Source of the DNA: Hypoxylon rubiginosum | Taxonomy: Eukaryota; Ascomycota; Sordariomycetes; Xylariales; Hypoxylaceae | Assembly: GCA_902806565.1 (NCBI GenBank) | Contig: CADCXA010000051.1 | Location: 592,879 to 656,878, forward strand | Length of the DNA stretch: 64,000 nucleotides | Direction: 5' to 3' | Part shown: positions 10,156 through 64,000 of the stretch, in pieces | How positions within the stretch are numbered: the stretch's first letter is position 1 | Layout of the letters: each line of letters begins with the position of its first letter | Made by a program: the position numbers and the translations under genes | The notes under the pieces: generated by a model | The model's database searches: none | Seen by the model: only the letters and a program-made list of their open reading frames with translations | What the model was told of the DNA's origin: nothing

Positions 10156-13100
10156 TTATTCATTTACCCGTGCTGCGAGTTGGCTTCTCTTCGCCACCAG
10201 CCGCCCAACCGTCGACATGGCTGCGTCTCGGGACGTGAATTCCGAGACGGGCAAATCGGCTTCAAAGAGGGTCCGAACCCAGTGGCGGAGTTCGACGGCC
10301 ACTAAGGAGTCGACCCCGTAGTCGGCAAGAGGGTCGTCGACGTTTATGTCGTCTAGAGCCAGGGCTAACGCACGGGCGAGCTTGTGGCGGAGCGCCTCGA
10401 CGACCACCGCGGCACGGCCTTCCCTGGTAGATTCCTGCTTGAATAGAGCTGCCGGATTCTTGTTTTCCGTGTGAATACTAGGATATGAGACGTCGGCTTC
10501 ACCACCGCCACCACCGTCAGCTATCGCCTCTGCCCGGGTGAAACCAGCGAAGAGGGGACGCTGTTGCGCTGAGCTAGGAGACGAGTGGCCTTCGGCCATC
10601 TGCTCTGCTGGCGTGACTAGCCCGACCAGGAGCTGACTTGTAGCAACGGGCCGCGAGGGATCGCATATGGCATCGAGCACCGCCAAGAGCTGGGCTGTGC
10701 TCACCTTGCGCATATCGCCGACCTGTTCACGGTGACGCTGATACGCCTCGTTGGCCGCGATGACGCCGGCGTCGTGCATCCAACCCAGGTCCAGAGACAC
10801 GGCCTTCTCGCCTCGGGCAACACGGTGACGCGCAAGCGCGTCTTGGAACGCGCATCCGGCGGCATAGTTGGATTGTCCCGGGCTTCCGTAGATGCCTGAC
10901 AGCGACGAGAGCTGCACAAAAAAATCCAGACCCGTTGGCAGCTGGTTGTGGAGGTTCCACGAGACGTCAACCTTGGACCTGACAGTCTGAGACCATTGTA
11001 GGTGGCGCATATTGTCAAAGACGGCATCTTGGAGGACCATAGAAGCGTTGATACAGCCCTTGATTGGAGCCTTCACTTGGTCATGAGCGCTTTTCAGTGC
11101 TGCCGATAGAGCGGATGAGGACGCAGCATCACAGCATGGGGCGATGACAGAGACTCCCTGCTCTCGAAACCTAGCGACGAGATCGGCGGCGGCCTGTGAT
11201 GAAGGACCTGATCTCGATAGGACAAGTATATTTCTAGCCCCCCGGTCTGCCAACCATTGCAGTATCGCTCTTCCTAGACCTCCGAAGCCGCCCGCAACGA
11301 GATATATAGCTCGTCCGTCAAGCTTCCACTCTCCTCTCGGGGCCAGACGTCTCTGCAAAGTTTCCAGGCTCATCAGCTTCATTGATAATATATTTCGGTA
11401 CACAATGCTAGAATGTCGTTGGTTCACTCACCTCGATCACATCTTCAGGTCCCAACCTGATAACGACTCGACCTGTATTCTTCCCACTCTGCATATATCG
11501 AAACGCGGCTTCGATCTTAGTAGGGGGGTATACATGCAGCGGTTTCGGGCACTGAATATGTCCCTTTACGACGAGCTCCATAGTCTTAGCCATGACCCTA
11601 CCGAGGAGGTTCACGTTGGTCCGAGCTAGGTGATGTAGGTCAACGACGCAGAAACTAATATTCTTGGCCAGGGCGGCCATAGGGAGTCCAGAGTTGGCCA
11701 TGATGTCGGCCTTGCCGATCTCAACGAAACGACCAAAAGGCGCAACACAGTCCAGAGAGGCGACGAGAGCATCGCCTGCCAGCGAGTTCAGTACCACGTC
11801 TAATCCAGCACCCCGGGTCACGCGCATTATGCCCTGCGAAAAGTTGGTGCTCCGGCTAGAGAATATGTGGTCTTCGGGGACCCCAAATTGTTCCATGAGG
11901 AGGCGTTTCTTGTCTGGGAGCCCGACGGTGGCGAAGACCTCGGCACCCACCATCTTGGCGATCGAGATAGCGAGCTGGCCGGTGCTGCCCGAGCCTGAAT
12001 GGATCAGGACCTTATCTCCCGGACCGAGGCGCGCCACCTCGACCAGGCAGTAGTAGGCGGTTATACCAGGGTTTACGACCGAGGCAGCGCTTTCGAAGTC
12101 TACGGCGTCGCCGAATTTAGCCACGGCTTTGTAGTGTGCGCGGGGGAACGTGCGCATGCCACCGAGCGAACACATGGCCACCCGATCTCCCGGTTGGATG
12201 GTGTCGCTGCATGCGGACCCTACTCTGGTTACAACGCCCGCGCAGTCGATGCCGAAATCGTTGTCACCAAGGCGGCCAAGGGCCACAAATACATCTCGGA
12301 AGGCCACGCCCCAGGCTCTGGCCTCGATTTCGACTTCTTCCGGTGCTAGCTCGTCCGGCGGCGCCGAGTCCTCTGAAAAGTAGAGCGTATCCAGGAGACC
12401 GGGGGTGTCGATGGCGAGCCTCACTGGGGGTTGCTGACGCCAGGGTGCCTTTACTGACGTAGGAGCTCCACCGTCAGCAGGGTGGGTGAGCCACGTTTCT
12501 AGCGCTTTCTCTCTGTAAAGGCGACCGGTCTCGATGCGGCCCTGGCGTACGGTGTACTCTACCTCCGGGCATAGAGACTCGAATGATGCCCTGAATATGG
12601 TAGCAAGATAGCCTATGTAGGTTTCGATGCTGTCCGTATTCGGCCCATTGCCAACGGTAAGAGTCACAATCTGTTTCTCGGCCGCCTCAGAACGCACCGA
12701 TCTGAGAAGTCCTTCCATGGTTGCGTGGTAAGGGGGTTTCTCGTGGCATGGGCCGGCGACGGAGCCAACGGTAGCTGTGAACCAAAGCAGTCTTTTCCGA
12801 ATCCCCATCACCAGCGCCTTGAGGCACTCGAATCGGTCCGGGGACAGATTCGGGAGAAGGGGCTCGTGCGCTTCCACGAGGGAGATAACCACGTCAGCTT
12901 CGCTGATGATGGCGGCGCTGTCACTAGATGAAGAACGAATATCATCAAATGACACAGTAGTCACGCTGTATCCTGATGGCTCGAGGAATTCCTCCTCCAA
13001 TCTCCTGGCCATAGCCACATGCAACTGAGAACCGAGACTCCTCACTACCATGACGACATGGGCTGAAGTCGGTAATGAAGACCGTTCGTCTCCTCCTTTC

Positions 13101-16100
13101 TCGTCTTCTTCTATTATTGCTGCCCTGGAGAGTATCAGGTTGAACACCCTGATACCACTGCCACAGGATAGACGAAGATTTCGGAGAGCAAGTTCGATCC
13201 CAGTGAACCCATTGTTTTTCAGTACGGCATTATCCCAATTGGACTTTACCCATCCGCCACTTTTATGCTGCTGACCCTCACGATATCTAGGAACCAAACC
13301 TGTAACAAACGAATCGACAAGACTCTCCCTCATGGGCTCGGCGGTCGTCATCTCCTCGGCATGAAGCAAATACCCCCCCGGCCTCAATGAAGCGTGGGCT
13401 TTTTGAAGCATTGCTCTTCTAATCTCTTTGTCCTCACCTCGGTCGCCAAAGCAGCCATTAACAAGAACCAAATCATACGAACTTGTTACCTCCCCCCCTT
13501 GCTGCTGCTGGATGCCGTCACCCACCACACGAACCTCGCAGCGGTCATCTTCGGAGAACAAGGGCAGGCACTCCTTCACCTTTTCGACCACCGACTCGTC
13601 GACATCTGCGCATGTGAACTCGTCGAAAGCATGGCACCCCGCGCTGTTACCGTAATCCCTGGCCTCGAAGTCAACGAGGGTCGATAACACCTTTACGGCT
13701 AGGTCTACGGCGCTGTCGCCGCCGAGAGATAGCACTTTTTGGTTGGGGTTTTCGTGAGACATGAATCCGAGGAGAGAGTGCAAGGGGTTGTTCTCGTTCC
13801 TATCGGGGAGAGAATTCTCGGAGGAAGGGAGGATTTCCTGCTGGAGTTCGTCTTCACAGGCGATTAGAAGATACGGATCGATGGCGCCAGATAGGATGCT
13901 CTTGATATGGCGAGCGAGGAGCAGCGCGACCTTTAATAAGGAGGAGGCGGGGCGGTGAGAGATCAAGATTCGTTCGAGTCGCTGGAGAGAGGCTTCTAGG
14001 TGCTCCTCATCGATAGTGGTGGTATCGCGCACCTCCGGCCGAAATGGATTGGACGCCTCTTGTCTCTGCTGCATCCATAAGACAAAATCTCGCAGATGGC
14101 CTGGTGGAACCGTCTTGTCAAGTTCTTGGTTGGTGAGCCATTCTAAAGTCGATCGCATAACCAAGTCGAGGGTCTTATCGAGTTGCAGATGATAGTCCTC
14201 GATAGCTGCTACTGTGGTTTCGCCATTTTCATCGCCATTATAATCATAACTATGATCGGCTTGGATGACTTGGCGCAGCTCTTTTGCACTCAGCAGGCTG
14301 AGCTGTGGCTTCCAGCTGATTCCGTACAGCGCAATTGGGTCCGTCTTTGACCCGCTCTCCTTCGTAGTACGTGATATGGGTTTGAAAATCAGCTTCTTAC
14401 AATGGAATAGGACCGAGTCTTCGTCGCTTCCCGTGACGGTGATAGTGCCGTCTACTTCCATACCTTGGGGTTTGCGTTGGGATCCGGTCAGATACCACAG
14501 CCGAGGAGGGGTTGTTCGGGCTTCCTGACACCATCCAGTGGCAGAGATCCAGCACTCGGAAATCTTGAAGGGGACATACGTAGCCGTCGCTTTAGACCGA
14601 GAGGAGGGTGTCTGGACAGCGATGAGCTGGAGTACCGCATCTACCACGGCTGGATGCATCACCATGGTGGTTGTATTATGTTCTTCTGATAACGCGATTT
14701 GGCCGATGGCGGTGCCGTCGGCATACCAACTAACGCTGTCGACAAGTTGAAAGCGTTTTCCGTACTGAAGCCCCTGATTACTGCAGGCTTCGTAGAAACC
14801 TGTCATGTCAGCCGAAGCGGTTATAACTGCACGTGATGACGTTTTAAACATCTTGTAAGCATCTCGTGCATCAGCCTGCTTATCTAGAGCACCCTGGAGA
14901 CTAATTAGGTCGCCTGTTACTTCTCGGAGCTGGATATTTATCTTGGCATGGAAACACTGGGAAACATCGTCACCGGCGCGAACGAATATTTTTACCTCGG
15001 ACCAGACTGACTCTTTCTCGTACGGCTTCTGGATGCGATGTAGATGCAGCTCAGTCTCGACATGCTCCCCAGATGAAAACTCGGGGATGACAACAGGTTC
15101 GAGAAAGCTGGCCTCTTTAATATGAAAACCCGCTGTTGCTTCTTTTTGCTTGGCATAGATAAACCCAACTGCTTCGAGTGCCATAACTAGCATGGCAGCC
15201 CCGGGAAGAAGCATGTTACCACACACCTAATAAGAAAGCATAGTCAGCAAGTCGTTTGGCTTCTATGACATACTATAAAATTCTTACCACGTGGTCGATT
15301 AGCCAGGGAAAGGAATCGGCTGTCCATATTTGTCGCCATCTAGGCTCCAACGGATTCCAATCTATCACTGGCAGTCCCAGAAGATTTCCTGCCGCCGTCC
15401 CCTCGATGCTGCGAAGACGATAGGCGCGACTTAGTCGTGATTCGGCCCAGTACCTTCTGGAATGGTCAAAGGGGTAGCGGGGGCAGTCGATAAGGAATGA
15501 CCGACGATTAACATCTTGCTCTATTTGATTAACGGCTGTGATGGATATGCGGTGGCCATGACAGAATAGACGACCCAAAGTCTCCAGAGCCGCACGTAAT
15601 GCAGGCTTTGACCGGCTCAAGATGCTATGATAGCGCATGTCTCTACTCTGACCCAAGCTGTCTTGTATTGACCGTCGTAAGGTGGAATGTGGTCCAATCT
15701 CTACGACGTCTTTAATAGACAGCATCTTACCTAGGCTATGAATTGCTTCAGAGAACTGCACAGGCGATATCATATTTCCCACCCAGTATTGAGGGGTCCT
15801 AAGGGTGGCGGGGCTCACCACCTCGCCCGTCACCGAGGACAACATAGGAATTGAAGAGTCTTGCTCTCGACTCCCAGTATGGTCTAACGAGCCAATAGAA
15901 ACCAGGTATTCGAACGCGACTGATCGCATTGCAGCTGAATGGTACGCGATTCCCGTCCGAAGCTTCTGCGCGAATATGCCCGTTCTGTCGAGCGTTGCCT
16001 TGATCTTATCGATGTTCTCTTCACTCCCAGAGAGAGTTAGGTTTGAGGGACTGTTAAAGCAAGCAATCTGCACAGATTCTTGTATTCCTTCATCTCGTAG

Positions 16101-18930
16101 GAATTCCCCAACACAATCTTTTGTCAGATTCACCGACAACATGGCCCCAGGCGATGACTGTGTTCTGGCGCGAAGCTTGGTGGCTACTTGCCCGCGAAAG
16201 TACGCAATCTTACAGGTGGAACTTAACGATAAAGCTCTGATGGCATAGCTGAATGATTTTGTCCCATCGTGTCAGAGGCTTTTACCAGGTGGACGGGCGG
16301 AACAGATTTCCAGAAGCCTACTTACGCAGCAGCGATCTCGCCGGATGAGTGTCCGATTACGGCACTTGGATGCAGGCCAAAACTTCGTAGTAACTCGACT
16401 AGGGCAATCTGAAGAGCCGTACAAAGTGGCTGACTATATTCGGGTTGATCTATGGTTTCGGAGTTCTGTAGCTGATCTGTAACTATTAGAAACTTTCGAG
16501 GAGAGGTTGCCTAGACACGGACTAGATCTGAAAAAATTACTTACCCACAATCGACCACTTGCAGCCCAACACTGCATATTCGAAGTCGATATCTTGCAGG
16601 ACCTTTTTAAAAATGGGGTACTGCATAAGTTCTAAGCCCATCTTCGCATACTGTGCTCCTTGGCCCGTGAATACAAAAGCAGGCGCCGCTCCAGCAGACG
16701 AGTAAGTTGGCTCAGCTGTTGAGAAGCAGGCGTCCACGCCCGTGAAGTGGGCATCCACAACTGAGAAAGTTCGACAGGGCATCTGGCTTCGTCGAGCAGC
16801 CAAGGTTAAGGCCAAGTCGTTCAGTTCGGTAGGCTTCCCCCCCGAAGCACGTGATTGATGGTAATCATTATAGCCTTGAACCACACGTTGGAGGGACTTC
16901 TCGTCGGGGGCAGACCACACCAAAAGGTGGAGGGTCTCCTTTGGTAACCCCCAGTTGGCTTTTTCAAGCGAGACTCCATTTGCTACCGCGTTATCCTTTA
17001 CGGTATTAACTCGTAAAATACCCTCGCCGCCGGTATTGATGCCATCAAGGCTAACTGTGTATTGTGCGCGTGGAAATCTGGAAGAATTAACAAGTGCGCG
17101 AAGGTCTCGGGTCTGGATGTAGTGATATGAGTCGTCCAAAATGACATGCGCATTAGCTCCACCAAAGCCGAACGAGTTGACTGAAACTCTGCGAAGGCCA
17201 TTTGTTGGCCAGGGGAGGGACTGAGTAGGGACCTAACAGCCCAGTAAGAAAGGGGTTAAATCAGCAATTAACGAAGAGAATGGCCTACATACCGCCGTGT
17301 GATGCAGCGTTAAATCAATATCAGGATTTATCTTCTCGAATAGAGCATTTGGAGGAATAATACCTCTCTCCAAAACCATCAACGACTTCAAAATACCAGC
17401 AACTAAAATCGTGTATCAGCGTTGCCAGAGCCGGAAGCATTTATACTCTCTTTATTGCTTAGAGAGACGATGTTACATACGGCCACTGCAACCTTCAAGA
17501 TGACCTATGTTGGCTTTTATTGAGCCACTTGTGATTCGGTTAGTTAATTATTTTGACGTCTTTTCGAAGGACACGAACACGTAAAGAGGGTCCCTGGAGC
17601 GGCGGGAAGATCCAAACACCCTGCCGATAGCCTCCACTGGTAATGACTGCTGTTAGACTCCATGTCGAACCAAATAAGGTCTTAGGATTAGCATAAATAC
17701 GAACTCTCGATTGGGTCTCCGATACGAGTCCCCGTTCCTAGTCATTAGGTGAGCACGATGGAGATGGAAAATTCTAAGCGGACGCACAAAAGTAGTAACG
17801 GAACACGTACCATGCGCCTCGAAATATCGGGTGGCGCTGAAACCAATTCCAGCCTTTTCATAAGCCTTTCTAATAAGCTCCGCTTGCGCGTCTGGGTTCG
17901 GACGTGTAAGGCCAGAAGTCCTCCCGTCTGAATTAGTACATGTCGATCGGATGACTGCCCGAATGATATCACCATCCTGCAGGGCCTGAGATACGGATTT
18001 GAGTACCAATACAATGACGCCTTCTCCTCTGGCATACCCGTTAGCCCGGTGGTCGAAGCTGTAACATTTTCCGTCGGCAGAGAGCAAGCCCCGGTTGTCC
18101 AGCAAGACAGATCGCTCGGGGCTTAGAATGAGGCTTGTGCCAATTACCAAAGACTATAGAAAGGCTATCAGCCCTACGGCGTTGTTTTTCAGACATAAAT
18201 TTCCTGGGGGTCTCACCGTAGAGGCCGTACCGCAACGAATGGATTGGCATGCCAGATCAACTGCCACGAGACTACTTGAGCAAGCGGTGTCCACATGCAC
18301 GCTGGGCCCTCGGAAGTCGAAATACCAACTTACCCTGTTGGCGAGAACAGAGGGAGCCGTGCCGGTTACGGACGTGCGTGGGAAAGTATCCGGGTCCCTC
18401 GCAGCAACTCGAGCATAGTCATCAGAGAAAGAGGAACTGAACACCGAGGTTTGGGACCCCTTTAACTTCTCAATCTGTATGCCGGCTGCGAATCATTAGT
18501 GTACAGACGGAGGCGGTTTAAATTGCAGAGAAAAGGCGATTTATACCATTTTCCAGCGCATGGTATGACGTTTCCAGCGCCCATCTTTGCTGCGGGTCCA
18601 TGGCGGCCGCCTCGTTCTCGGATATAGCGAAGAAAGAAGCATCGAAAACGGCAGGATCACCGCGAAGAAAGTAACCGCCACGGCTATGAACCTGATAATA
18701 AGACGTGAGAACGTGGCATATCGGATAGAGGTTAGTTATTCAGAGCTAACCCTGTTCAATTTCGCACCGCTTGGATCATAGAAAGAGTCAATCGCAGCAC
18801 GCGAGTCGGGCCAAGTGGTCATGAGGTTGATACGATCCTGAAGTATAGACCACAAAGCATCCTCATCCTCGACGCCTTGGGGGAGCCGGAAAGCCAGGCC
18901 CACAACGGCAACATCGTCGTCTAATGGCAT
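10156..18930 (-). CDS. highly reducing polyketide synthase (KS-AT-DH-cMT*-ER-KR-ACP)
   Basis: Iterative type I PKS making a reduced chain, plausibly the starter for the non-reducing system. Thirteen exons (18930-18751, 18691-18547, 18485-18217, 18153-17811, 17737-17705, 17636-17579, 17527-17481, 17402-17293, 17232-16545, 16476-16326, 16248-15288, 15226-11432, 11352-10156) sum to 2658 aa. KS: DTACSSS (Cys177), [23 protein letters not shown] (Ser668). [12 protein letters not shown] (His994) and DAVLQ (Asp1191). cMT (about 1350-1690): SAM motif degraded to LSLGGDS. ER: about 1950-2270, with [14 protein letters not shown]: about 2280-2460, SSLSG and Tyr2423, with Cys2427 where many KRs have Asn. 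ACP: GVDSL (Ser2609). There is no release domain, so the chain must be passed on or released in trans. Twelve introns, eight of them within the first 1.7 kb. Confidence 0.95.
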
Positions 18931-19458: not shown

Positions 19459-20721
19459 CTATCCACGGCAGAACCGGTCTATCTCGGCCGTGAGATCCGC
19501 AACGGATCTAGATAAATGTCGATGAAGCGCGGACCGGATCCCAAAGCCGGTCGTAGCGATAGCAGAATTCCCTTGTGCGGCAATCACCTCTTCTTCTCTC
19601 TCCTCCAATTTGACCAAAAACTTGGAGAACCCTTTCAACTCGTGAACAACAAGCTGGGCGTTCAGCCGCTGGGATGTAGCCGTGTCGACGTTGAAACCAG
19701 CAAACAGCTGCATGGGCGCGAAAATTGAGCTACTCTCTTCTCCAGCAACAGCAGCGTCATTCTCGTGGCGGTCATGGTGTGACGGCTGCCGCACCCCCTC
19801 GAACACGGCCCAGTAGATACCTAGAATGTCCGACCCTATGGTGAAGAGCAGACACTCCAAGCCTCCGTCCGTGACGCAGGTAGTGCATTGACGAGAGAGA
19901 ATTTGGTTAAGGGTTTGGACGGCAGAGCGAGCGGCCTTGAGGGCTTGGCCTGTCGGAAGATGAGCTATAGCAGAACTTCTGCTGGGCTCGTGGACGGTGC
20001 GGTTGGCGTCGGCTTGGTATCGGCATGGCTGCTTTGAGGGGATGAGGCGGAGGGTGTCAAGTATTGAGAGAGCCATGTCTAGGCAGCCTTGTGCGATGGT
20101 TGTGGTCGTAGATTTGTTATTAGGAGGGGGAGGGGGAGGGGGAGGGGGAGGGGTTACGGCGACCAGAGTAGAGGATGAACCGGAGGACAAGTCCGAGTCC
20201 ACGGACACGGACACGGACACGGGCTCCCACGACGTGGACTCGGCACTGCTCCAGGGGTGCGTCGGCGTCGGCGTCGTACTGGTGGAAGATGCGACACGGG
20301 GATGACGTCTGGGAGCATTGCACGTCTGCGAGAGGATCATTTCGTGGCCGTTGGGCGTTGGTAGGTGATGATCAAGATGCCAAGGTGAAGTGGCCAGGTC
20401 CACATCGCAGAGCGCATCGTCAAATGGGGCATCTTCCAGCAGAGTTGACAGGTCGTTTGCTGGTAACTCCGTCTCTGTACGTTCTAATTCGCCACCGCCT
20501 TTGCTATTAGCTGGCCTCCCTTTCCATCGGTAAGGACTGTAGACGCAGGCCGGTCCAGCAAGCCTGCATCTCTCGCAGGTTGGTCGCTGCTTGTCACATC
20601 GAATCTTTAATGTGGTACAACGGTCGCAACTTGATCTTAGCTTTCCCGCCGTGGGCGACGGTCGCCCTCTCCTAGAAGTTCTTCCAACGCCGCCATTGGT
20701 CTCCTGAGCGTAGCTTGCCAT
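19459..20721 (-). CDS. AflR-like Zn2Cys6 cluster regulator
   Basis: An intronless frame of 420 aa. The zinc cluster is Cys32-x2-Cys35-x6-Cys42-x6-Cys49-x2-Cys52-x6-Cys59, preceded by a basic, Gly/Arg-rich leader and followed by YSPYRWKGRP. This layout, with a C-terminal half containing CLDMALSIL and a second small Cys pair (CTTC), matches the AflR family that controls aflatoxin and other polyketide clusters. A Pro10 run and a Val-Ser repeat (VSVSVSV) in the linker are encoded by microsatellite-like DNA at 20126-20153 and 20199-20221, so linker length may vary between strains. It sits between the two PKS groups and is divergent from the SAT-MAT gene, so it probably controls the whole set. Its target sites are not proven. 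Confidence 0.9.
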   Translation of the reverse strand: MASYAQETNGGVGRTSRRGRPSPTAGKLRSSCDRCTTLKIRCDKQRPTCERCRLAGPACVYSPYRWKGRPANSKGGGELERTETELPANDLSTLLEDAPFDDALCDVDLATSPWHLDHHLPTPNGHEMILSQTCNAPRRHPRVASSTSTTPTPTHPWSSAESTSWEPVSVSVSVDSDLSSGSSSTLVAVTPPPPPPPPPPNNKSTTTTIAQGCLDMALSILDTLRLIPSKQPCRYQADANRTVHEPSRSSAIAHLPTGQALKAARSAVQTLNQILSRQCTTCVTDGGLECLLFTIGSDILGIYWAVFEGVRQPSHHDRHENDAAVAGEESSSIFAPMQLFAGFNVDTATSQRLNAQLVVHELKGFSKFLVKLEEREEEVIAAQGNSAIATTGFGIRSALHRHLSRSVADLTAEIDRFCRG

Positions 20722-20972
20722 TATTACGTATTATACGTAACATGTGAAAACATCTATATTGTACACGAGGCTCCCGGGGGAGGTTCCCTCGCGCGACTTC
20801 AACTTCATATCCTCGAAAACCCATGGTTGGCTGTTGGCTGTTGGCGTTACACTGACATGACGCATGCGATGCCGATGTCTGACACCTCTGCCACCGTCAC
20901 TTTGGCCCCCTCACGGCCCCTCCTTCATGTGCGGCGCAGCCCTGGAGGTGTGTTGTGTGGGGGTAATGTAGG

Positions 20973-20984
20973 CCGGACGTCCGG
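20973..20984. promoter_or_regulatory. CCG-N6-CGG palindrome, candidate Zn2Cys6 site
   Basis: CCGGACGTCCGG is a perfect 12-nt palindrome. Paired CCG/CGG triplets with fixed spacing are the classical target form of dimeric Zn2Cys6 factors. It lies about 250 nt upstream of the AflR-like gene and about 500 nt upstream of the SAT-MAT gene. Confidence 0.4.
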
Positions 20985-21263
20985 GCGGCAATAAAAGGAG
21001 GTAGGTGCCGAAGCCTGCTGCAGCCCAGGGCAGGGCACTGAATCTGTTACATGTTAAGTGTAACGCAGTCTTGGTGGAGGATTGAATCCTTCACGATAGT
21101 ACCACGATTGTCCCAGATGAGGTCTCCCATCCGCGTAGCATCACATCTACCACTATCAGCTACCCTTGCAGTCAGCATGCATGCAACACGATAGCCATGC
21201 AGTCCATCAACCTGGCCCCATGACACTTGAGTCCCGGTATTGGGGGATGTGAATCGGCACCGG

Positions 21264-21367
21264 TTGAGTACCTACCCCCGAATATCCCCACCCGCAGCCA
21301 GACACCCGTAGCTTGAGTACCTACCTAGACACCCTCCGCCGGGTTTCCGCAGCCAGCCAGACACCCG
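21264..21367. repeat. imperfect tandem direct repeat in the divergent promoter
   Basis: Two units of about 45 and 55 nt both begin TTGAGTACCTACC and both end with CAGCCAGACACCCG. They differ in the middle and by a duplicated CAGC in the second unit. The position about 120-220 nt upstream of the SAT-MAT start codon suits a duplicated regulatory element. Confidence 0.5.
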
Positions 21368-21488
21368 ACATTATCAGTGTGCCATTCTACTCGCGTTTAA
21401 GAGGCTATCATGATTTTACCTGATCAGTCGTACAGTAGCTATTGCCCAGCGTATTATTCCCCGGAGAGTCTGAGCGGAAATTTTCACC

Positions 21489-24400
21489 ATGACTGGGGAA
21501 ACAAGTGCATCTCTGGGCCTGGCGGTATTCGGTCCCCAGACCAATGCGCCGCAGCTAGAATATCTTGATAGGCTACGAGGTTATATTCACTCCAATGTTC
21601 ATCTCCAGAGGCTCGCGCGCGAAGCACTTTGCCTGTGCGACACGTGGGATGTGCTAGCGAAACACCGCGAGGACATTGCTACTCTACAGGGGCGTAAACA
21701 CTTGGATTCGCTAGCAGCCTGGCTTAATCATGGCCCCTCGACCCCCGTAGCCAGCGAGGTATCCGGAATACTATGCATGCCGCTCCTGGTCTTGATAGAA
21801 ATTTCCCAGTACTTCCAGTTTCTCGAAAATACGGGCTCGAGCCACTCTGACGTGTTGGCAAACCTACAGCAAGGAAAAGGGGCAGGAGTGCAGGGCTACT
21901 GTGCCGGCCTCCTCCCAGCATTTGCCGTCGCCACTGCTAAAGATGAAGAGTCGGTCATTGTCAACGCTGCCAAAGCTATGCGCCTCGGCCTTGCCATCGG
22001 GGCATACGCCGAGCTTGGTGACGATCTGACCGTCGAGGGAGATACCACCATCGTCGTACGCCTAAGGAATCCTGCGCAAGCAGAAGATATTACGAAAAAT
22101 TTCCCGGCTGTGAGTAGAATAAGACGGGAAGGAGGTCCGAAGCCGCTACCCAGAGGTCACTCCTGGTAACTGACTATAGGTTCAAGACATACATAGGGGC
22201 TATTACCGACGCCAGAACCGTCGGCATCGTGGGCCCTGTTGATACGCTCCGACGAGTAGCAAAATACATCCAGGCGGAAGGAGTGGTGTCGCAATCGATC
22301 CACCTCCGCGGAAAGAATCACAATCCCGAAAATGCCATGCTCGCCGCAGATCTATACCAGCTGTCGGAAAAGTTCGAGTTTCTCCAGCTCGGCAACTCGG
22401 ACCAACTCCTCGTTCGGGTAGATTCCAATCGGGAAGGGAAACCGCTAGGGCCGCATCGCAACCTCTCGCACGAAGCCGTGTTCAGCATGCTGACCTCTAG
22501 TGCCCATTGGGATATCATACTACGAGAGGCTGCTGAATCTCTGCGCTCATCGGTTGGGCGCTCTGACCCGACATGTCCCAATCTCATCGCTCTATTTGGC
22601 ATCGGAGATCCTGTGCCCCTTGTTCCGTTCCACCAAGCACGTATACGCGTGACGAAGCTAGAGATGTCTCGTATAGCAGGGCCGTGGCGCAGCAACAGCA
22701 ACGGCACCGGCAACGGTAAGAGACAATTTATCCTCAGCGACAATGCCTTAGACGGGGGAAGCAACGCTGCTCTCGTCTGTTGCGATGCGCCGCCTGTTAC
22801 AGCCTCTTCAGAGCCCGCTTATCGGGGAGCGGTGCCTATTCTAATATCCGGAGCCACGAAGTCGAGTCTTATCTCGTACTGTAGAGAGTTGGAGAGCTAT
22901 CTGCAGCGCAACGTGGTAAGCATTGGTCAAGCAGCATACACTCTAGCCACACGCCGAAAACATCACCGCTTCCGCTGGTCAGCTGTCGTCTCGAGTACCC
23001 ACGAACTACGGCAGTCCTTGGGTCGTGTAGGGACAAATGACGTGGCCGAGGTGCTGCCGCACCCACGAGCCGCAAAGAGGGTTGTGCTGGCTTTTGGCGG
23101 GCAGAACCAGCGTTTCGTGGGGCTAGACAAGGCAGTCTACGACTGCAACCCGCGATTTCAGTACCATCTCAGTGCTTGTGATGAAGAGTTGGCGCGGTTG
23201 GGGTTCCCTTCACTCCTACCTAGTATCTTTAGCAGGGACCCTGTCACCGACATTGTTTTGCTGCAGACAGGTACCTTTGCGGTGCAGTATGCATCTTCTC
23301 GCTGCTGGATCGACGGCGGTCTGCAGGTTGATGCTGTCATAGGCCATAGTTTTGGGGAGCTCACGGCGCTGGTCATCTCAAACACTGTTTCGTTGCAGGC
23401 CGGGCTGACCATTGTCGCATGCCGAGCGATGCTAATGGCCTCGAAATGGGGTCCGGAACGAGGTGCCATGCTGGCCGTTCACTCGACTTTGGCAGCTATC
23501 TCCGGACTCATAGCTGAGGATGTCGAGGTGGCTTGTTACAATGCAGAGCGCAGCGTGGTTTTAGTCGGGTCGTCTGAGGCCATGTCCCGTCTCGAACACG
23601 AACTAGGCCACGATCCTAAATACGCTGGCATCCGATACCAATGCCTGGACGTTAGCCATGGTTTTCACTCCAAGTTGACCGAGCCTCTGCTCGATGACCT
23701 TCGCGCCATTACCCAAAACATATCGTTTCAACAGCCTGACATTCCCTTGGAACCATGCACACTTGACCCTTGCAATCCCCAGAGCTTAGGGTCAGTCTAC
23801 CTATCAAACCACATGCGAAAGCCCGTGTACTTCGCTAATGCAGTGCGACGGATTGAACAGCGGTTTGGGCCATGTATTTGGCTAGAAGCCGGACTAGACT
23901 CCTCTATAATACCCATGGTTAGGAGGGCGGTCACTAGGACTAAGTCCAATCATATATTCCAACCGGTCTCTTCTGGTCGCAAGCAGGACCGAGGTAACGA
24001 GATGCCTTCGGTTGTTACTACGTTGTGGAAAGCAGGGTGCGCAGTTTTGTTCTGGCCATTCCTCTCCGCTGAGGAAGCTGGGTTTTCGAATATCTGGATA
24101 CCTCCTTATTCCTTTGATCGAGAGAGCACTTCGGTTGAAAAGGTTGACCAACCAGTCTCGGCTCCGTCTGTCGATATCTCATCTCCAAGGCCGACACACA
24201 ATATTTACGAATTGCTGCAAAAAAGCGAGTCATTATTATCAGCGATTGCCGAGCGCAAAGGGCTTCGTAATTACTGGAAAGAGGTGGCTCCGAAGCGAGA
24301 CGCCATTGCCTTAACCTACGTCCTCGAATGCTTTAAAGGACTCCATGTAGACTTTGGGCTTCTGAAGCCGGGGAACGCTATACCTCCTATTTATTATCTA

Positions 24401-34680: not shown

Positions 34681-35860
34681 ATGTCCCAACTCGATCTCAA
34701 CGCGGCCGTCATGCCGCCCCCTCCGGGCGAGACGCAGAACCTCGACAACCCGCCGAACGGGAACGGTATCATGATTGGCGTGTATACTACGTGCATTATC
34801 ATTGCCACCACTTCTGTCGTCCTACGCACCTATTCCAAGTTTTTCCTTTTGAAGTTGGGCCGGATCGAGGACTATCTTTTGGTTCCGACCTGGGGTATTT
34901 TTATCGCCCATTGTGTCTTCTGGTTGAAGATGAACGGTACTACTGGCAATCTTGTGCATATATGGGATTTCCGCATTGGTGGTCTGGCCCCCTTTTATCG
35001 TGTAAGTTTCCTCTCGCGTCAACCCAAATAACGTACCTATGCTTACATGAATCCTGGGTCTCAAGAATGGCTTCTACGGAAGTTTACTCTACGAGACCGT
35101 TATGATGGTCCTCAAACCCATGATTCTATTCGAATGGATGCATATCTTCGCGTCTGCCGGCCCGCGAAACTATTTCAACTGGGCCTGTTACATCCTATCT
35201 ACCATCAATGTCCTCACATATTTTATCTCCATCATGATCGACGCTACGTCCTGTACTCCCCGCGAATATTGGTGGGACCAGACGATCGAGGGCCATTGCG
35301 TCGATACGAAAAGCCTCCCCATCGCTACAGCGATCATCAACGTCATACTCGATGTCTTTATTCTACTTCTACCGCAGGGCATTATCTGGCGCCTAAACAT
35401 GTCCAGGGCTAAGAGGGCTAGTGTTTCGTGCGTCTTCTTCATCGGCCTAATCTCCGTCACCGCCGCTACCGCTCGCCTTGCCTTGTCTGTCGCCTATTCC
35501 ACGTCCGTCGACGTTACCTACCAATTCTCACAGGCAGGTATCCTCATCGTCTTGGAAATGACGTTTGCTATTCTCGTCTTCACCTCACCTCATATGCCCA
35601 AGCCTGTATCTCTACTTGCTCAGGCGACCAGTGCCTCTTTGACCCGACTCATTAGAACGAATAGTGGCTCCGGCAGCGGTCACCATTCCACATCCTCCAG
35701 ATCGAAACACGGCCAGGACATCGACGAAAACGGGAATTCTCTGCCTCTACACGTCTTGCGATCTTCTAAGAGCAGCCGGAGCTTGCCGCGCAGAGTGGGC
35801 AAGAATTCTGTTGAGAGCGAGGTGCAATTCGCCAAGCCGGAAATGCCTGGCCTTCCATAA
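34681..35860 (+). CDS. seven-helix rhodopsin-like integral membrane protein (fungal PTH11-related family)
   Basis: Exons 34681-35001 and 35066-35860 with a 64 nt intron give 371 aa. Hydrophobic segments can be seen at MIGVYTTCIIIATTSVVL, YLLVPTWGIFIAHCVFWL, the region around WACYILSTINVLTYFISI, ATAIINVILDVFILLLP, SCVFFIGLISVTAATARLAL and AGILIVLEMTFAILVF. The charged loop RTYSKFFLLKLGRIEDYL after the first helix is typical of the fungal rhodopsin/SAT4-type membrane-protein family. The cytosolic tail is Ser/Arg-rich and low in complexity. Members are plasma-membrane proteins of mostly unknown function, and some resemble PTH11-type receptors. It is not a recognisable transporter. It may be a passenger in the cluster. 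Confidence 0.85.
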
Positions 35861-38278: not shown

Positions 38279-39062
38279 GCTGTGGCTTATTCCTAGGATC
38301 GTATACATGTAGAAGTCTATTATGGAAACGAGATGGCGTACCTAAGCGATAGGTTACAAATCAACATGTTATAAATGGCTATCGATGGCTCTATCTACGC
38401 TGTTGTTTAAACTAACACAAAATATAAATCCATTTTCGGTTGTCTGGTTTTCACGGAGGAGGTGGGGAGAATCACACCTCAAGTCGAACAGCTGACTGAT
38501 ACTATAAATACCTAGGTACCCAGAGAGACAGAGACGGAAAAGAAAGTGGGAAAAGCCCCATGCCGATGCAACTGCATAAGTCGGAATGGATTGGCCAGTA
38601 ACATAGGTAGTACAACATTGCCATCCATGGATCGCTTTCGGCTCATCATTCAAGTCCGAGTTGCCACATGTAGGACAGAGATCTGAGCTTAGGTATGTCA
38701 GATCTCTAGGACGAAACAGGTAATCGTCCCCGGCAAGGCATTCACACCAGGCTTGCGTATACGGGGTTTCAACCTCTACTAGCCTCAGCTACACCACTAT
38801 CCGTGCCGCCCCCTATTATCATCTTTCTCGTTGTTTCCCAATTCCTGACTACAGTAATACTCTGCAGCCTAAGTTCGGTAGGATTCGAGGCCGTCATAAT
38901 GGTGCAAAATAGATGCACGGTGGAGGAGGGGGCGGAGGCCGTGAAAGGCCAGTCAGCTCATCAATGATACGAGATAAAACGGTTGGTTCCGGCACATGGA
39001 AATTCGGAAGCAATAGTCAATCAGATTTTCCAGACACCACCGTCACATAACTCGTCTTCAAC
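38279..39062. promoter_or_regulatory. divergent promoter of P450 and acyltransferase
   Basis: A 784 nt region between divergent genes. TACCTAGGTA occurs at 38509-38518. Purine-rich GGAGGAGGGGGCGGAGG lies near 38924-38940. No coding sequence was recognised. Confidence 0.45.
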
Positions 39063-40970
39063 ATGGCGAGTCCCAATGTCTATTCCCGCCCTGCGGGCGC
39101 CATGGAGACATTCTTCAAGAAACTAGGCGACTCAGGCCCCCGGGAAGGACCCGAGCATGGAGCTTGCCTCGGTGTCTTCCAGCTCGAATTCCCGGACATC
39201 ATGAGCAAGGTTAGAGCGGCACAGTACATTGCCGCGGCGTGGGAGACGTTGGGGAAGAGATACCCAGTCCTACGGGCTGAGATTTCTGAGCCTCCCTTCC
39301 CAGTAGACAAGATGGGAAGAGAGCGTCCGATTATCACGGTTCGGTCCTCTACCGAGGCCACCTTCGGCGAGACTTCTTTCTCGACGCACCCAGGTTGCCC
39401 AAGCATCGACGCCCTATTCTCCACCACGCCTCATATTTCGCAAAGCAAAACGGCAACGTGCCACTGGCTTCCGGACCCGGGGCAGGTGATCCTGCGTCTT
39501 TCCCACTGGCGCACCGATGGCTTGGGCAAGCTCCTCCTAGCCCACGAGTTCCTCTCCACGCTCGGGAGCTTGGTGCAGTTTGGGCACGAGCAAGGCCACG
39601 TTGACGTCAAGACTGTCTTGACTCGGTGGCGACAGCAGCAGCAGCAAACCCAATCGTCCCCGCCAATGCTCAGTCCCAGCGTAGAGGAGCTCGTCCGGAA
39701 ATACTTACCGCCGCCAACAAACCCCAAGGAAGCAAGTGCATCTGCCGCCGACGCCCTCGTCCGCACCTTGGTCGACGGTCCCCCGAGTATCGCTCTCCCC
39801 ACCACCGGCGGAGGTCCCAATACCACCTCGCGTGCCGCCATCCGCCTCAGCACGCGAGCATCCGAGCGGCTGCGCGATTCCTGCAGAGCGAGCGGGTTCA
39901 CCGTAACCTGCGCCCTCAACGCGGCCATCATCCGTGCCACCCTGTCGCACATCCCAAGCAAACCCGGCGCGGAACCGGGTTCCTACGCCTTGTTCGCCCC
40001 GGTCGACCTCCGGGCCCCGCTGATGGCGGCCCTGCCTTCCGTCCCCGAAGTGCAGACGTACTGCTCCCGGCCCACGGGCAACTACGTCTCGGGCCTGCCC
40101 CTCCGCATCGGCGGCGTGGCGGGCAAGTCCTTCGCGGTCCTAGCCCGAGAGCTAGCTGCGTCCTACGCGTCCCGGGACGCCACGCGGGGGGAGCTGCTCC
40201 ATATCGCGGAGCCGTATGCCGACAAGATGGCAGACCTGTTTGCCACTTTCGGGGGCAGCCCCGGCTGTCCGTATCCGGGAACGCCGGTGATCACCAGCCT
40301 GGGGGTGTTGGACGGGTTGATTGGGGAGACGTATCCCCCACCGAAACAACAGGACGGTCGCAATGATACGGCATCGGCGGCGGGCAAGCCGGTCCTCCGC
40401 GTCACCGATCTCTGGAATTCGCCCGAGTGCGCGACGGGCATACTGACCTTGTCGCCGTGGAGTTGGGCCGGGAAGTTGACACTTTCGGCCGTTTGGAACG
40501 ATAGGTTTTATGACCGCAGCATCGCGACTAAGATACTGCACAAGATAATGGACGAGTTGGAAGATGGGTTGGGAATGCCGAAACAACGCGACTCGTATCA
40601 GATTATTTATGGTTGTGCCCTTTTTTTTCTTTTTTTTTCTTTTTGCTTTTTCTTCTGAGCCCTTCGCTAACTTATTAAAGCCTGCTCTGACGATGCAACA
40701 AGAGTCAACAGAGTCCCCATAAAATCCATCCCTAAGCCTAAGACGATGCCAGTGCCGTGGCTTACGGGGACACCGCCTGGCATGCCGCTGCGAATCAGCA
40801 GCGGAAGACGTATTGGCTTGGGCGTAGCTTTCATTGCCGGAAGTTTTCTAATTGCGTCTATGGCGATGCGCAAAAGTCGGGTATCGGTAGACAGAGACAG
40901 GAGTAACTACGATGCTGCTAATATCTTGCCCCAGATAGTATCAACCGGGAGTTTGGTCCGAAAGTGTTAA
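39063..40970 (+). CDS. acyl-CoA-dependent acyltransferase, condensation-like fold, with predicted C-terminal membrane anchor
   Basis: The main body (residues 1-516) resembles fungal alcohol O-acetyltransferases of the condensation superfamily. The catalytic motif HxxxDG is His148-x3-Asp152-Gly (HWRTDG), and FTVTCALNAAI and YALFAPVDLRAP fit the second half-domain. It is expected to acylate a hydroxyl on the cluster product. The 3' end is unclear. Read straight through, the frame ends at 40658 in an implausible Phe-rich tail encoded by T runs. Splicing 40612-40680 (GTTGTG donor, T-rich tract, branch-like GCTAAC, AAG acceptor) keeps the frame. It adds a tail with a hydrophobic segment near GVAFIAGSFLIASMAM and gives 612 aa. 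I prefer the spliced model, though its donor is non-consensus. Confidence 0.8.
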
Positions 40971-40975
40971 CCAGC

Positions 40976-41009
40976 TCGGGTGTTGGGGTCAAAGCCCCGA
41001 ACCACCCGA
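40976..41009. promoter_or_regulatory. imperfect hairpin between acyltransferase and O-methyltransferase
   Basis: The arm starting TCGGGTG with GGGG pairs with the arm GCCCCGAACCACCCGA across an AAA loop, with one or two mismatches. It begins 6 nt after the acyltransferase stop and about 150 nt before the O-methyltransferase start. It could be a 3'-end signal or an operator. A direct repeat ATCGGCGATCGGCG follows at about 41022. Confidence 0.35.
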
Positions 41010-41053
41010 CCAAAGGCGTAATCGGCGATCGGCGTCGCTATCAGTTTTGATAT

Positions 41054-41060
41054 TATATAA
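41054..41060 (+). promoter_or_regulatory. TATA-like box of the O-methyltransferase gene
   Basis: TATATAA lies about 100 nt upstream of the start codon at 41158, in the right place for a fungal core promoter. Confidence 0.4.
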
Positions 41061-41157
41061 ACCTGTTAGGAGCGGTAGTCTCTATTAGAACCTGAGTATA
41101 GCATCTGCGTGCCACAATTTCGTCGTCGTGCCAATATTTCCAAATATCAAATTCAAC

Positions 41158-42679
41158 ATGACACCCTCCGTTGAAACCGGTGGGGGAGATAGCCCATCAA
41201 TCATCGCTCTCGCGGAACAGATATCCTCCCTCTGTTCGCAAGTCTCCTCCTATTTGACGGCGAATTCATTTCCCCAGCCCAGTTTCAAGGCAGACACGGG
41301 AGCTGTCCCACAGACTCCCGACTACGAAGCTCTCCGCGCGCCCCTGAACGATGCCGTACTGGATCTGCTCCGCCTCATCAATGGCCCTAAGGCCACACTG
41401 TTGGATTTATGCTTCTCCCATTACAACCTCGCGGCAATGCAGATAGCCCTCGACCGGGGGTTCCCCCATCATGTCCCGGTCGCTTCAGCAACCGGCAGCG
41501 ATGCCGGCAAGGGAGCCACAGTGGCCGAGATTGCCCAAAAGGCGGGGATGGACCAGGACCGCACGGGACGGATTCTGAAGCTTCTGGCTACCCAGCGCAT
41601 ATTCGAGGAGGTAGTCGACGATCCTAATACAGAATGCCACGATGAGGGCAGTCGCCGCTTTACGCACACGGCTAGCTCCGCGCTTCTTGCTCGTGACGTC
41701 CCCTTCTACGCAGCGCTGCATCTGCAAGTGGATGACAACTTCCGAGCCGCTTCCGAGTCTGCGGCCCAGATTTCTCTGGCGCCTTTTGCTTCCAGCGCGA
41801 CTGATTGTCCCTTTAGTAAGGCATACGGGTCTAGTATGTATCAATACATTGCGCAGAGACCGGAAAAGGCAGAGAGGTTCGCCAAGGCTATGGTTGGCTG
41901 GGCTGAGGGTAAGTTATTCCGAATCCTCATCATGCCGAACGCGATGAATAGAGGTTAAACTACTTGCCCCCTTTTCCTTCCTTCGAATAGGCGAATTACG
42001 GCAGATGCATGAACTCCACAACGGGTATCCCTGGGAATCGTTGGAGGGCGGGACTGTTGTTGATATTGGCGGAGGGAATGGGCACATCTCCATTGGCCTT
42101 GCGCGTGTAAGTGTCGAGTGTCGTCCTTCGCTCCAGTGTCACTCCTGTAGTCAAAGTGCTGTTTACTTACCCCTTGGTACGACGCAGATATTTCCCACTC
42201 TCAACTTCATTGTCCAAGACATCTCCCTTCCCATGCTCTCTGCAGGGAAGAAGAACCAAGTTGACGGTCGCGACCATGATGTCTACAAGCACCTGAGCTT
42301 CCAGCATTACGACTTCTTCCAGCCCCAGCCCGTCTATGACGCCTCCGTATTCCTTATGCGGCAAGTCCTCCATAACTACGACGACGAGGAGTCTATAAAG
42401 ATCATCCGCGCCGTGATCCCAGCGATGGAGTGTTGTGCGGGGCCGCTGCTCATCAACGACCTAATAATACCCAAGACTGGGACCATTCCGAGGTATCAGG
42501 AAGAGCAATTGAGGAAAATAGATATAAACATGATGGTCTTGCTAGGCGCTAAGCAGAGGAGCCGGGTAGAATGGGTCAAGTTGATTAAGGAAGCTGACGA
42601 GAGACTGGAGGTCGTGAGGGTCGTCGAAAGTGTTAGTGGTGCTCCAGGGTTGATCGAGGTCCGTCTTCGTGCACAGTAG
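41158..42679 (+). CDS. SAM-dependent O-methyltransferase, COMT-like
   Basis: Exons 41158-41908, 41991-42106 and 42188-42679 (introns of 82 and 81 nt) give 452 aa. The second intron is in-frame without stops, so it can easily be missed. The N-terminal half is helical, for dimerisation and substrate binding (IALAEQISSL, a winged-helix-like VAEIAQKAGM, then LLATQRIFEE). The Rossmann domain has VVDIGGGNGH (Asp275 region) for SAM. FLMRQVLHNYDDEE carries the usual catalytic-base His position, followed by INDLIIPKTG. The start was chosen at the ATG in the CAACATGAC context; the upstream in-frame codon at 41128 is GTG. It probably methylates a phenolic hydroxyl of the polyketide, as in related fungal clusters; this is inference from the family. 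Confidence 0.92.
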
Positions 42680-45819: not shown

Positions 45820-46080
45820 ATAATAACTTAGTAATAATTTATTAATAATTAAATAATAACTTAATAATAATTAAATAATAATTTAATAATAATTAAATAA
45901 TAATTTAATAATAATTTAATAATTATTTAATAATAATTTAATAATTATTTAATAATAATTTAATAATAATTTAATAATAATTTAATAATAATTTAATAAT
46001 AACTTAATAATAATTTAATAATAATTTAATAATAATTTAATAATATTTTAATTATAATTTAATAATAATTAAATAATTAT
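45820..46080. repeat. 11-nt tandem array (TTTAATAATAA)n, left copy
   Basis: About 260 nt of imperfect repeats with period 11, unit TTTAATAATAA and variants (CTTAATAATAA, TTAAATAATAA). The period shows as a regular one-base shift along the sequence near 45960-46040. Confidence 0.65.
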
Positions 46081-49000
46081 TATATTATAAAAAAAATAAA
46101 TAAATATATATTTTTTTAATATTAATTAATATATTTATAAACTATATATTAAATTCTTTTTATTTTATAAGTTATTATTATAATTTTAATAGTTAATTAA
46201 AACTTTAATTATATTATATTTTTTAATTTTATTTTTTATTATTTTATTTTATTATTTTTTATTTAATTATAATATAATTAATATTAAAAATTTATATAAA
46301 ATAAGTTTTATTTAATAATATTAATTATTAAGCTTTTTATTTAATTTTAATAAAAATTTTTTAATTTTATAAAAAATTTTTTATTTATATATATAAGTGT
46401 AGTTAATATAAAATTAAATATAGTAAAAAAAAAAATAAAAAACCTAAAAAATACAGTTTAAAATATAATTTTATATATAATTAAATACTTAAAATTAACC
46501 TTTAAAAAAAAATAAAACTATAAAATATTTATATATTAAAAATATAACCGGGTAATTTTTAGTTAAATATAATTATAAGAATTTATTATTTATTATTAAA
46601 ATTTTTATAAAATTAATTAATTTATAATTTTTTTTCGCTTATAAAAAAAACTTATAAAAAAATATAATAATTTTAATTTAAAATAATATATTAAAAATAT
46701 TATAAATAATTATATATAAATTATAAAATAAATATAATTTATATTTATAAATAATTATTAAGATTTATTATTTAATTTTTAACTTTTATTAATTTATAAA
46801 AAAAGCTTATAAAAAAGCTTAGTTATTTTAAAATTAAAATATAAAAGCTATAGTTTTATATATTAATTTATATATATTTAATATTTAATTATTTAATTAA
46901 TTTATAGTTATTTAATTTTTAAATGTTTTTTTATATAAATAAATTAAATTAAATAAGTTTTTTTATATTAAGTTTTTATTGTTATAACTTTAAAAAATTT
47001 TTTTTAAATAAAAATAAATACTTTTTATAATTATTAAAACTATAAAAAAAAAATATAATTAAAAGAAACTAAATATTAAATAGTTATTTATAGTTATTAT
47101 AACTTATAATTATATAATTTTAAGGTATATATTTTAATAAAAATAAATAATAAATATTAATTTATATATATAATTATAAAATAATATATTTATATTTATA
47201 TATATATTTATAAAAAAAGGTTGCCTTTATTTTTTATTTTTATATGTTTTTATTTTTCTTTATTTTTCTTTTTTTTCCTTTAATTATTATATTTTTTTAT
47301 TTTTCTTTTTATTTATTTTTCTTTTATTTTTTATTATCTATTTACTTTATTTTTTTTTAAATTTTTTATTTTTTTATTTTTATTATAATTTAATTAAATA
47401 TATTTATTATAAAATATTTTATTTATTATATAAATAAGCCCTCTAAGAATTTTAAGGTTTTAAATAATATATATTAAAATTAAAGATTTTTTTCTTTTTA
47501 TTATAAACATTATTATATATATAATTAATATAATAATATATTTTTTTTAATAACTTATTTTATAAAATAAAAATATATTTTTATATTATAATTTTTTTTT
47601 AAATAAATTTAGTAAAATTTATTAATTATATTAATAAATAAAATCTATTAAAAACTTTAAAATTTTTAATTTTTAAAAAAATATATATTACTTTTATTAC
47701 TAGATTAAAAATAATAATAATAAAAAAAATTTAACTAAATATTAAAAAACTAAGTTAAAACGTTTATTAAATTTCTTTAAAATAATAAAGATATTATTTT
47801 ATAAAAAAATACCAATATTATATTAAAAACCATTAAATTAAATAGTTTAATACTTTTAATCTATTTATTAAAACTTAAATTAAAATTTAAATAATAATAA
47901 TTAATATATATTATTTAATATAAATAATCACTCTATTTAATTATAATTTTAATTAAGATTAAATATTATTAACTTATAATAAATAATATATATTATCTTA
48001 AAAATCTTTTTAAAAGATTTTTTAACTTTTTTTTTATTAAAACCAACTTTATTTTAATTATTTTATTTATTAAAAACATATTTTTTTTAAAAAAAAACTA
48101 AACCTTTTTTTTAATATAAAATTTAAATAAGCTATAAAAACTTACTTTTTTTTAATAAGAATTATTTTTATAATTAATGTTATTTTTTAAAGCTTATAAT
48201 TTAATAAATTTAATTTTAATATTTATTAATTATAATTTAATAATTAATAAGTTTAAATTTATATTACTTTTTTTATTTACTTATATTTTATAAAAAAAAT
48301 CCTTTTTTAAAATTAAAAACTACCATTAGTTTAATTAAAAACTTTAAAATATTTAATTTAATATTAAATTTTATATAAATTTTAACTTTTTTATTAATAA
48401 TATAAATTAAAATAAAATAAGGGTAAAATAAAAAATAAAATAAAAGTGAGATAAAAGGTAAAATAAAAAATATTTATATTTTATTTTCACATTTTAATTT
48501 AATTATAATTAATTATTTCCTATAAAATCAGAAAAAAAAATACTAATAATATTTTTTTAGTATTTATTTAAATATATATTTATATAACTAATTATAATAT
48601 ATATATTTTTTTTTAATTAACTTTTTATTTTATTTACTTTTTTTATAATAAAACATATTATTATAATATATTTTAAAGGTATTAATTAAAAAAATATAAG
48701 TTATATTTTTTTTTATTTATTAAACTTTTTTACTTTTTATTTAATTTCTTTATTTATTATTTTATTTTTAAAAAGTTTTATATATATTTTTTAATTTTAA
48801 TTAATTTTTTTATTTTTAATTAATATATATTATTATATTTTAATATTTATATAAGCTTTATTAAAATTTATTATTAATTAAAACTAGTTTTTTATTATTA
48901 TATATTATTTATTTTTATAATAATTTTATTAAATAAATATATATAACTTTATTAAAACTTATATAAAATATAAGAAAGTTTATAAGTAATTTAAAATAAT

Positions 49001-63244: not shown

Positions 63245-63325
63245 AACTAAATAATAATTAAATAATAATTAAATAATAACTAAATAATAATTTAATAATA
63301 GTTTAATAATAGTTTATTTAAATTT
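63245..63325. repeat. 11-nt tandem array, right copy
   Basis: About seven units of TTAAATAATAA grading into TTTAATAATAG. It has the same period and nearly the same unit as the array at 45.8-46.1 kb. Confidence 0.55.
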
Positions 63326-64000
63326 ATAATAAAATTATATATTATATTAATTTTTTATAAAAATAAATTTATATAAAACATTATATTATTTAGTTAATAT
63401 TTATTTTATTAATATTTAAAAAGTATTTTATAAATTTTTAATGGTAGATTTTTTAGTTAATATAAAAAAAACTAGTAATAAATTAATTATATTTATTAAC
63501 TATTACTTAATTTTAATTAAATTATTATTTAATTATAATTTATATATTTATTTTAATATAAAAGTCGTATTAATGTTTTTAAAATTATAATTATTAATTA
63601 AAATCTTTTATATAATTATTAATATATTTATATTTCTTTTAGTTTTAAAAATAATATTATATATAATATTAAATTTAAATATAATTTTAATTATATATTT
63701 TATAATTTATTAAGTTTTAAATATTAATTAAACTTTAATTTAATTTATATATTATTATTATATTAAAAAACTAAAACTTAATTATTAAGAAATATTATAA
63801 CGGTTAATATATTATTTATTATTAAGTTATTATAATATTTACTAGTATTTTAACTTATAAATATATTTAAAAGTTTATAACTTTTTTTAATATGTTTTTT
63901 TTATTTTAAAAACTAATTAAATATTATTAATTAATAATAAAATTAATATTAACTAACTTATAAAAACCTAACTAATAAAATTTTTATTTAAAATAAGTTT

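Follow-up and report, generated by a model that had tools for sequence, protein, structure and literature searches.

We describe two adjacent polyketide synthase (PKS) genes, here called A and B, in a stretch of 64,000 nucleotides from Hypoxylon rubiginosum (assembly GCA_902806565.1, 48.3 Mb in 70 contigs; contig CADCXA010000051.1, positions 592,879 to 656,878). This whole stretch is referred to as the window, and all coordinates follow its numbering. We put the chances at about even that A and B are two subunits of one nonreducing PKS (NR-PKS), in which A would load the ACP of B in trans. The interpretation builds on the complementary sets of intact and lost domains in the two genes, the presence of the same losses and motifs in other species, the separate ancestry of the genes, and their adjacency.

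Complementary domain sets of A and B

An earlier note on this DNA had claimed that the domain sets of A and B complement each other, and Pfam and NCBIfam profiles, catalytic motifs, and coordinates agree with it. Gene A lies on the plus strand at 21489-25336 and comprises three exons and two introns encoding 1235 residues. Its features are as follows.

21489-22109, plus strand: exon 1, N-terminal SAT with the catalytic Cys codon (GYCAG) at 21900-21902
22110-22186, plus strand: intron 1, predicted, 77 nt, GTGAGT...CAAG, giving a gap-free match to P0001
22187-24803, plus strand: exon 2, remainder of SAT, KS scar, linker domain, MAT, and start of cMT
22652-22753, plus strand: KS scar, ~34 residues against ~430 in intact relatives, from alignment with P0004, P0006, and P0002
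22817-24151, plus strand: linker domain, MAT, and post-MAT region
24221-25333, plus strand: altered cMT (SAM motif GARFGAF, short C terminus), split by intron 2
24804-24866, plus strand: intron 2, 63 nt, skipped in P0001
24867-25336, plus strand: exon 3, including the stop codon

The SAT of A is a match to PF16073 that spans exon 1 and the beginning of exon 2, and besides GYCAG it has an intact GKNH motif with the His codon at 22319-22321. The MAT (Acyl_transf_1, E 2.6e-29) is likewise intact, the Ser of GHSFG being encoded at 23348-23350 and the His of SHGFHS at 23666-23668; the other profile matches are to the linker domain, the cMT helix-turn-helix, and a methyltransferase. None of the KS, PP-binding, PT, and esterase profiles in Pfam and NCBIfam matched A, which lacks a PT and an ACP between MAT and cMT as well as a TE after the cMT, just as the note had described it. 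The alignment indicates that the KS was excised in frame, nearly at the domain borders: residues 11-360 correspond to the P0004 SAT and residues 398-862 to its linker-MAT, and the interval between them measures 37 residues in A vs. 434 in P0004. In the A protein of Hypoxylon cercidicola (P0002), the remaining KS end is longer by a few residues, and we therefore read the scar as common to the relatives and eroding.

The gene model of A is supported by P0001, a public predicted protein with 99.4% identity to A (1227/1235), which lacks precisely the residues of intron 2. The apparent breaks in the frame fit the two introns, and a frameshift in A was rejected. The odd C termini of the annotated P0002 and P0003 (H. 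crocopeplum) resemble, by eye, another frame of A exon 3, and we therefore read them as a missed intron 2. In the cMT of A, GARFGAF replaces GAGTGGT, the GWWLFEDGR stretch is altered, and the domain ends early. It retains a His (CFHTPR) and a Glu (LTEMM), which we take to be the catalytic pair, at the positions of other cMTs; the domain looks degenerate, but may not be fully dead. Genome wide, a search scoring the best candidates only found SAT matches at 14 loci of the source genome. Two of these look like fatty-acid-synthase genes, as their KS is kilobases off and on the opposite strand. A same-strand KS adjoins the SAT in 11 of the remaining 12 by a by-eye comparison, A being the exception.

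Gene B is convergent with A, the two stop codons lying 148 bp apart, and has these features.

25485-32318, minus strand: gene B, one open frame of 2277 residues
30921-32174, minus strand: KS (DTACSSS, EAHGTGT, and KGNIGH kept)
29919-30551, minus strand: MAT remnant (GHGLGQ; ~85 residues including the His gone)
28653-29609, minus strand: PT
28248-28442, minus strand: ACP (LGIDSL)
26739-28028, minus strand: cMT (LEVGAGTG kept)
25569-26468, minus strand: esterase-type release domain, TE (GWSSGG and GAPHIC kept)

The B orthologs are annotated from Met41, which corresponds to 32198, and B may thus start there. Its profile matches are to ketoacyl-synt (5e-73), PP-binding, cMT, Abhydrolase_3, and Peptidase_S9, and to PT_fungal_PKS at E 5e-32 and 111 bits, under the NCBI cut-off of 168; both PT motifs, presumably the His and Asp motifs, are kept. 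The Acyl_transf_1 match covers just profile positions 24-119 of 319 and the nucleophile Ser is replaced by Gly (GHGLGQ), while the other parts of the MAT persist, as does the linker domain. The KS part of a predicted B structure had pLDDT (predicted local distance difference test) values <50 and was not used. No SAT profile matched B, the genome-wide search found solely the SAT of A in the region, and on the minus strand of 32319-33400 none of the three frames has a stop-free run longer than ~90 residues; an SAT remnant upstream of B was rejected on the basis of this search and frame scan. The earlier description of B, with KS, PT, ACP, cMT, and esterase, without SAT, and with a MAT devoid of Ser and His, is thereby confirmed. 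The earlier account was sound in its anatomy and overlooked the introns of A, its altered cMT, and the highly reducing PKS (HR-PKS) next door.

With KS, PT, and ACP carrying catalytic motifs and no reducing domains, B has the makeup of a fungal NR-PKS, and neither B nor A combines an intact SAT and MAT with a KS on one polypeptide. B has the domain order of canonical SAT-KS-MAT-PT-ACP-cMT-TE synthases such as P0036 and P0040, annotated BcPKS19 (identity to P0036 76% in KS, 67% in PT, and 77% in TE). Unlike these, it has no SAT, and its MAT is truncated and lacks Ser and His; its loading would need a second protein.

Separate ancestry and conservation of the losses

We compared the ancestry of A and B using their linker-MAT and cMT regions. 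One linker-MAT tree had 65 rows, consisting of A-like proteins, 3 of the B lineage, 4 loci of the source genome, and every third other listed row matching >300 residues. A cMT tree had 50 rows chosen similarly; both were quick trees without bootstrap. A more careful linker-MAT tree was computed from 30 hand-picked rows. The linker-MAT of A groups with P0004 (Apiospora), P0005 and P0006 (both Talaromyces), and L033, a locus of the source genome (support 100/100), and that of B falls inside the lineage of proteins annotated BcPKS19. Constraining A and B together in the linker-MAT tree cost 142 log-likelihood units (P value 3e-64, approximately unbiased [AU] test), and the cMT tree also separates them, the stem of A being very long. 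On this separate placement and AU rejection, we conclude that the pair is two distantly related NR-PKSs reduced in complementary ways rather than duplicates. The linker-MAT trees and AU test reject a tandem duplication of one gene and do not support the proposal in the note that A and B are paralogs whose opposite domain losses followed a duplication. Its other statement, that one gene had not been split in two, holds: A and B share overlapping MAT and cMT regions and belong to different lineages, and a split was rejected accordingly.

The SAT and linker-MAT of P0004 (annotated BcPKS16), P0005, P0006, and L033 are 36-48% identical to those of A. P0005 and P0006 carry SAT, KS, AT, a PT/DH-like region, and ACP, whereas A is without KS, PT, and ACP. 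The larger lineage of A also includes P0160 (451 residues, 38 member sequences), in which a linker domain and an AT occur without a KS; its members may be fragments or more KS-less proteins.

Among the matches listed in protein searches, the nearest named relatives of A and B are from Hypoxylon and Hypomontagnella. The orthologs of B in H. texense (P0034) and Hypomontagnella submonticulosa (P0035) have the lesions of B, the motif at the MAT Ser site being GNGLG in P0034 and GHGLG in P0035, and they keep the tested KS, PT, ACP, SAM-motif, and TE signatures. The identities of P0034 and P0035 to B are 98 and 97% in KS, 96 and 93% in PT, 99 and 92% in ACP, 98 and 94% in TE, and 92 and 90% in the MAT remnant. 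None of the three proteins, lacking both Ser and His, is predicted to have a working AT. The best 120 of the 7961 hits to B include 117 with Ser at the MAT nucleophile site; P0034 and P0035 alone have Gly there, and P0107 shows a gap. The MAT His is found in 117 of the 120, the exceptions being P0034, P0035, and P0084. At the SAT Cys, 60 of these 120 rows had a gap. As SAT absence is common among annotated relatives of B, the missing SAT of P0034 and P0035 could be an annotation artefact; unlike the SAT absence, their MAT lesion sits within the open frame. P0084 (Apiospora rasikravindrae), which keeps the MAT Ser, has an annotated fungal rhodopsin domain fused ahead of a B-like NR-PKS. Together with a rhodopsin-like gene near B (35051-35857), this fusion hints at old synteny.

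A KS-less A is found in P0001, P0002, and P0003, with 84-99% identity. The first protein search with A was limited to proteins 0.55-1.75 times as long as A, and its full-length kin are therefore under-represented. The annotation of P0003 begins mid-SAT; the SAT Cys motif is retained in both relatives that cover it, and the SAT His motif and the two MAT motifs in all three. A and P0002 are identical at 308/348 positions in SAT, 273/296 in MAT, and 161/193 in the N half of the cMT, as compared with 30/45 in the scar and 16/23 in the MAT-cMT linker. What is new here, judging from these sequences, is that the relatives of A and of B keep their respective losses.

A putative two-subunit synthase and its alternatives

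In the proposed synthase, A would be the loading subunit, its SAT accepting the starter and its MAT malonyl-CoA, and both would transfer their acyl groups in trans to the ACP of B. B would be the chain-building subunit, its KS condensing, PT folding and cyclizing, cMT methylating, and TE releasing the chain. A itself lacks a carrier and a KS, and B, judging by its sequence, lacks a working acyltransferase. The product of the neighboring HR-PKS may be handed to the SAT of A. We infer the contact between A and B, the transfer in trans, the link to the HR-PKS, and any product. Loading in trans is made more plausible by the conservation of both lesion sets and the kept catalytic motifs in other species. 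A bolder version, which we consider less likely than not, is an obligate iterative PKS of two proteins from different NR-PKS lineages, retained in several Hypoxylaceae species, in which a free SAT-linker-MAT subunit would take an HR-PKS starter and malonyl-CoA and serve KS-PT-ACP-cMT-TE in trans.

Dissected NR-PKS domains have been reassembled in vitro by others. In bacterial trans-AT PKSs, a separate protein supplies AT activity to a synthase without a working AT; these are modular with a discrete AT, whereas A and B are fungal and would act iteratively, with SAT, linker, and MAT in one subunit. Kuhnert et al. 2021 (PMC8403587) encountered PKS domain sets spread across several genes on few occasions and were aware of no split fungal PKS with retained function. 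Their example from X. hypoxylon is an HR-PKS with KS, AT, DH, C-Met, and ER in one gene and KR and ACP in the other. The note knew of no such exact pairing and missed that these "disintegrated" PKS genes of Hypoxylaceae and Xylaria, which include cases from the same fungal family, had already been published. Like them, A and B hold a full domain set over neighboring genes; unlike the split HR-PKS, and not as two halves of one former gene, they are of NR-PKS type with two ancestries, overlapping MAT and cMT regions, and lesions conserved across species. Hypom. submonticulosa was among the genomes surveyed in PMC8403587, and the A/B locus may therefore stand unnamed in its tables. In known HR/NR pairs (sorbicillin, asperfuranone, and chaetoviridin), Loehr et al. 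2023 (PMC10401856) place the HR-PKS gene beside the NR-PKS gene, with SAT motifs intact, as here, and the HR-PKS product passes to the NR-PKS SAT; there the SAT is within the NR-PKS, whereas in our case it would be on a separate protein. The open-access literature covered, including portions of PMC8403587, PMC10401856, PMC6334511, and PMC12470490, yielded no functional split fungal NR-PKS and none with SAT or MAT in trans. With its reciprocal, conserved losses, such a natural pair allows a direct test of whether a fungal iterative PKS can be loaded in trans and raises the question of which features of A or B would permit it. If the proposal is true, PKS genes now written off as truncated merit renewed attention, and loading subunits could be swapped by way of a natural interface.

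Several observations weigh against a two-subunit synthase. A and B were seen together only in the source genome, the named A and B orthologs being from different species. A search with a 557-residue piece of A for a counterpart in H. texense and Hypom. submonticulosa returned P0003 and 27 others at <=49% identity. Looking for the pair elsewhere, as the note had proposed, gave A-type and B-type orthologs with the respective lesions in separate species. The stems are long (linker-MAT 0.91 and cMT 3.42 changes per column for A; MAT 0.85 and cMT 1.15 for B), as relaxed or changed constraint would give. The cMT of A is altered, though the two-subunit model needs no cMT in A, and the MAT of P0003 is kept not significantly better than the N half of its cMT (P value 0.19). 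The MAT remnant of B, relative to KS, evolves no faster than the MAT of intact synthases: P0036 and P0037 are 82% identical in MAT and 95% in KS, the MAT being the faster there too. Recent evolution therefore shows no release of constraint on the MAT of B, and the remnant may be kept as a scaffold. According to PMC10401856, supplying a free SAT in trans failed to restore the ascomycete NR-PKS ACAS when its own SAT was missing. Finally, TCGN5CGR is absent from 20722-21488 and 32319-33321, upstream of A and B.

The large deletions in each gene, the long stems, and the altered cMT of A would also fit a dead or dying cluster, in which A and B are decaying remnants of two NR-PKSs and their complementarity is coincidental. 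An AT-rich tract adjoins the cluster. PMC8403587 regards PKS genes missing several domains, with no other core gene in the vicinity, as presumably dead and considers product formation by disintegrated PKS genes not deducible. We nevertheless consider decay fairly unlikely, as the ortholog frames are open and the catalytic motifs kept where covered, save for the annotated C termini of P0002 and P0003, and the domains are better conserved than the scar and linker. Neutral substitution of the SAT-to-MAT region of A to ~88.5, 90.5, and 92% identity, simulated without indels, left it stop-free in only 1.2, 2.0, and 3.8% of 500 runs each. It is unlikely, too, that B alone is active, with SAT-less priming and malonyl from the fatty acid synthase or another NR-PKS, and that A is dispensable. 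Basidiomycete SAT-less NR-PKSs are active according to PMC10401856, and the source genome has at least 11 other SAT-bearing PKS loci; on the other hand, the same paper knew of no characterized active SAT-less ascomycete NR-PKS, the SAT-less ACAS was inactive, and the kept SAT and MAT of A beside B would be left unexplained. That A serves another partner, such as the HR-PKS or another NR-PKS, and is unrelated to B seems very unlikely to us: the regulator and HR-PKS adjoin A, as B does, but the HR-PKS has an AT domain of its own (GHSSGE), and B is the neighbor that lacks exactly what A has.

Neighboring genes and regulation

Two further genes lie on the other side of A.

10159-18918, minus strand: HR-PKS, KS-AT-DH-MT-ER-KR-ACP, in several open pieces (Pfam)
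19459-20721, minus strand: Zn2Cys6/AflR-type regulator, between the HR-PKS and A

Single-frame regular expressions found KS Cys, one KS His, AT Ser, KR, and ACP signatures in the HR-PKS and none for the second KS His, AT His, DH, MT, ER, and KR Tyr; Pfam finds DH, MT, ER, and KR domains. Past B lie genes for a GST, the fungal rhodopsin-like protein, a P450, a PapA-like acyltransferase, and an O-methyltransferase, the last two of which (39051-42676) could have a tailoring role in the same cluster. TCGN5CGR has 59 matches on both strands of the window, compared with 41.5 +/- 7.4 in shuffled sequence, and 3 of 100 shuffles reach 59. Coregulation of A and B via shared sites of this type has no support, as neither promoter holds one; a single palindromic site is found at 19040, upstream of the HR-PKS. 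Beside the cluster, whose G+C content is ~48-58%, 46000-64000 of the window consists of ~18 kb at 5-9% G+C, possibly reflecting repeat-induced mutation.
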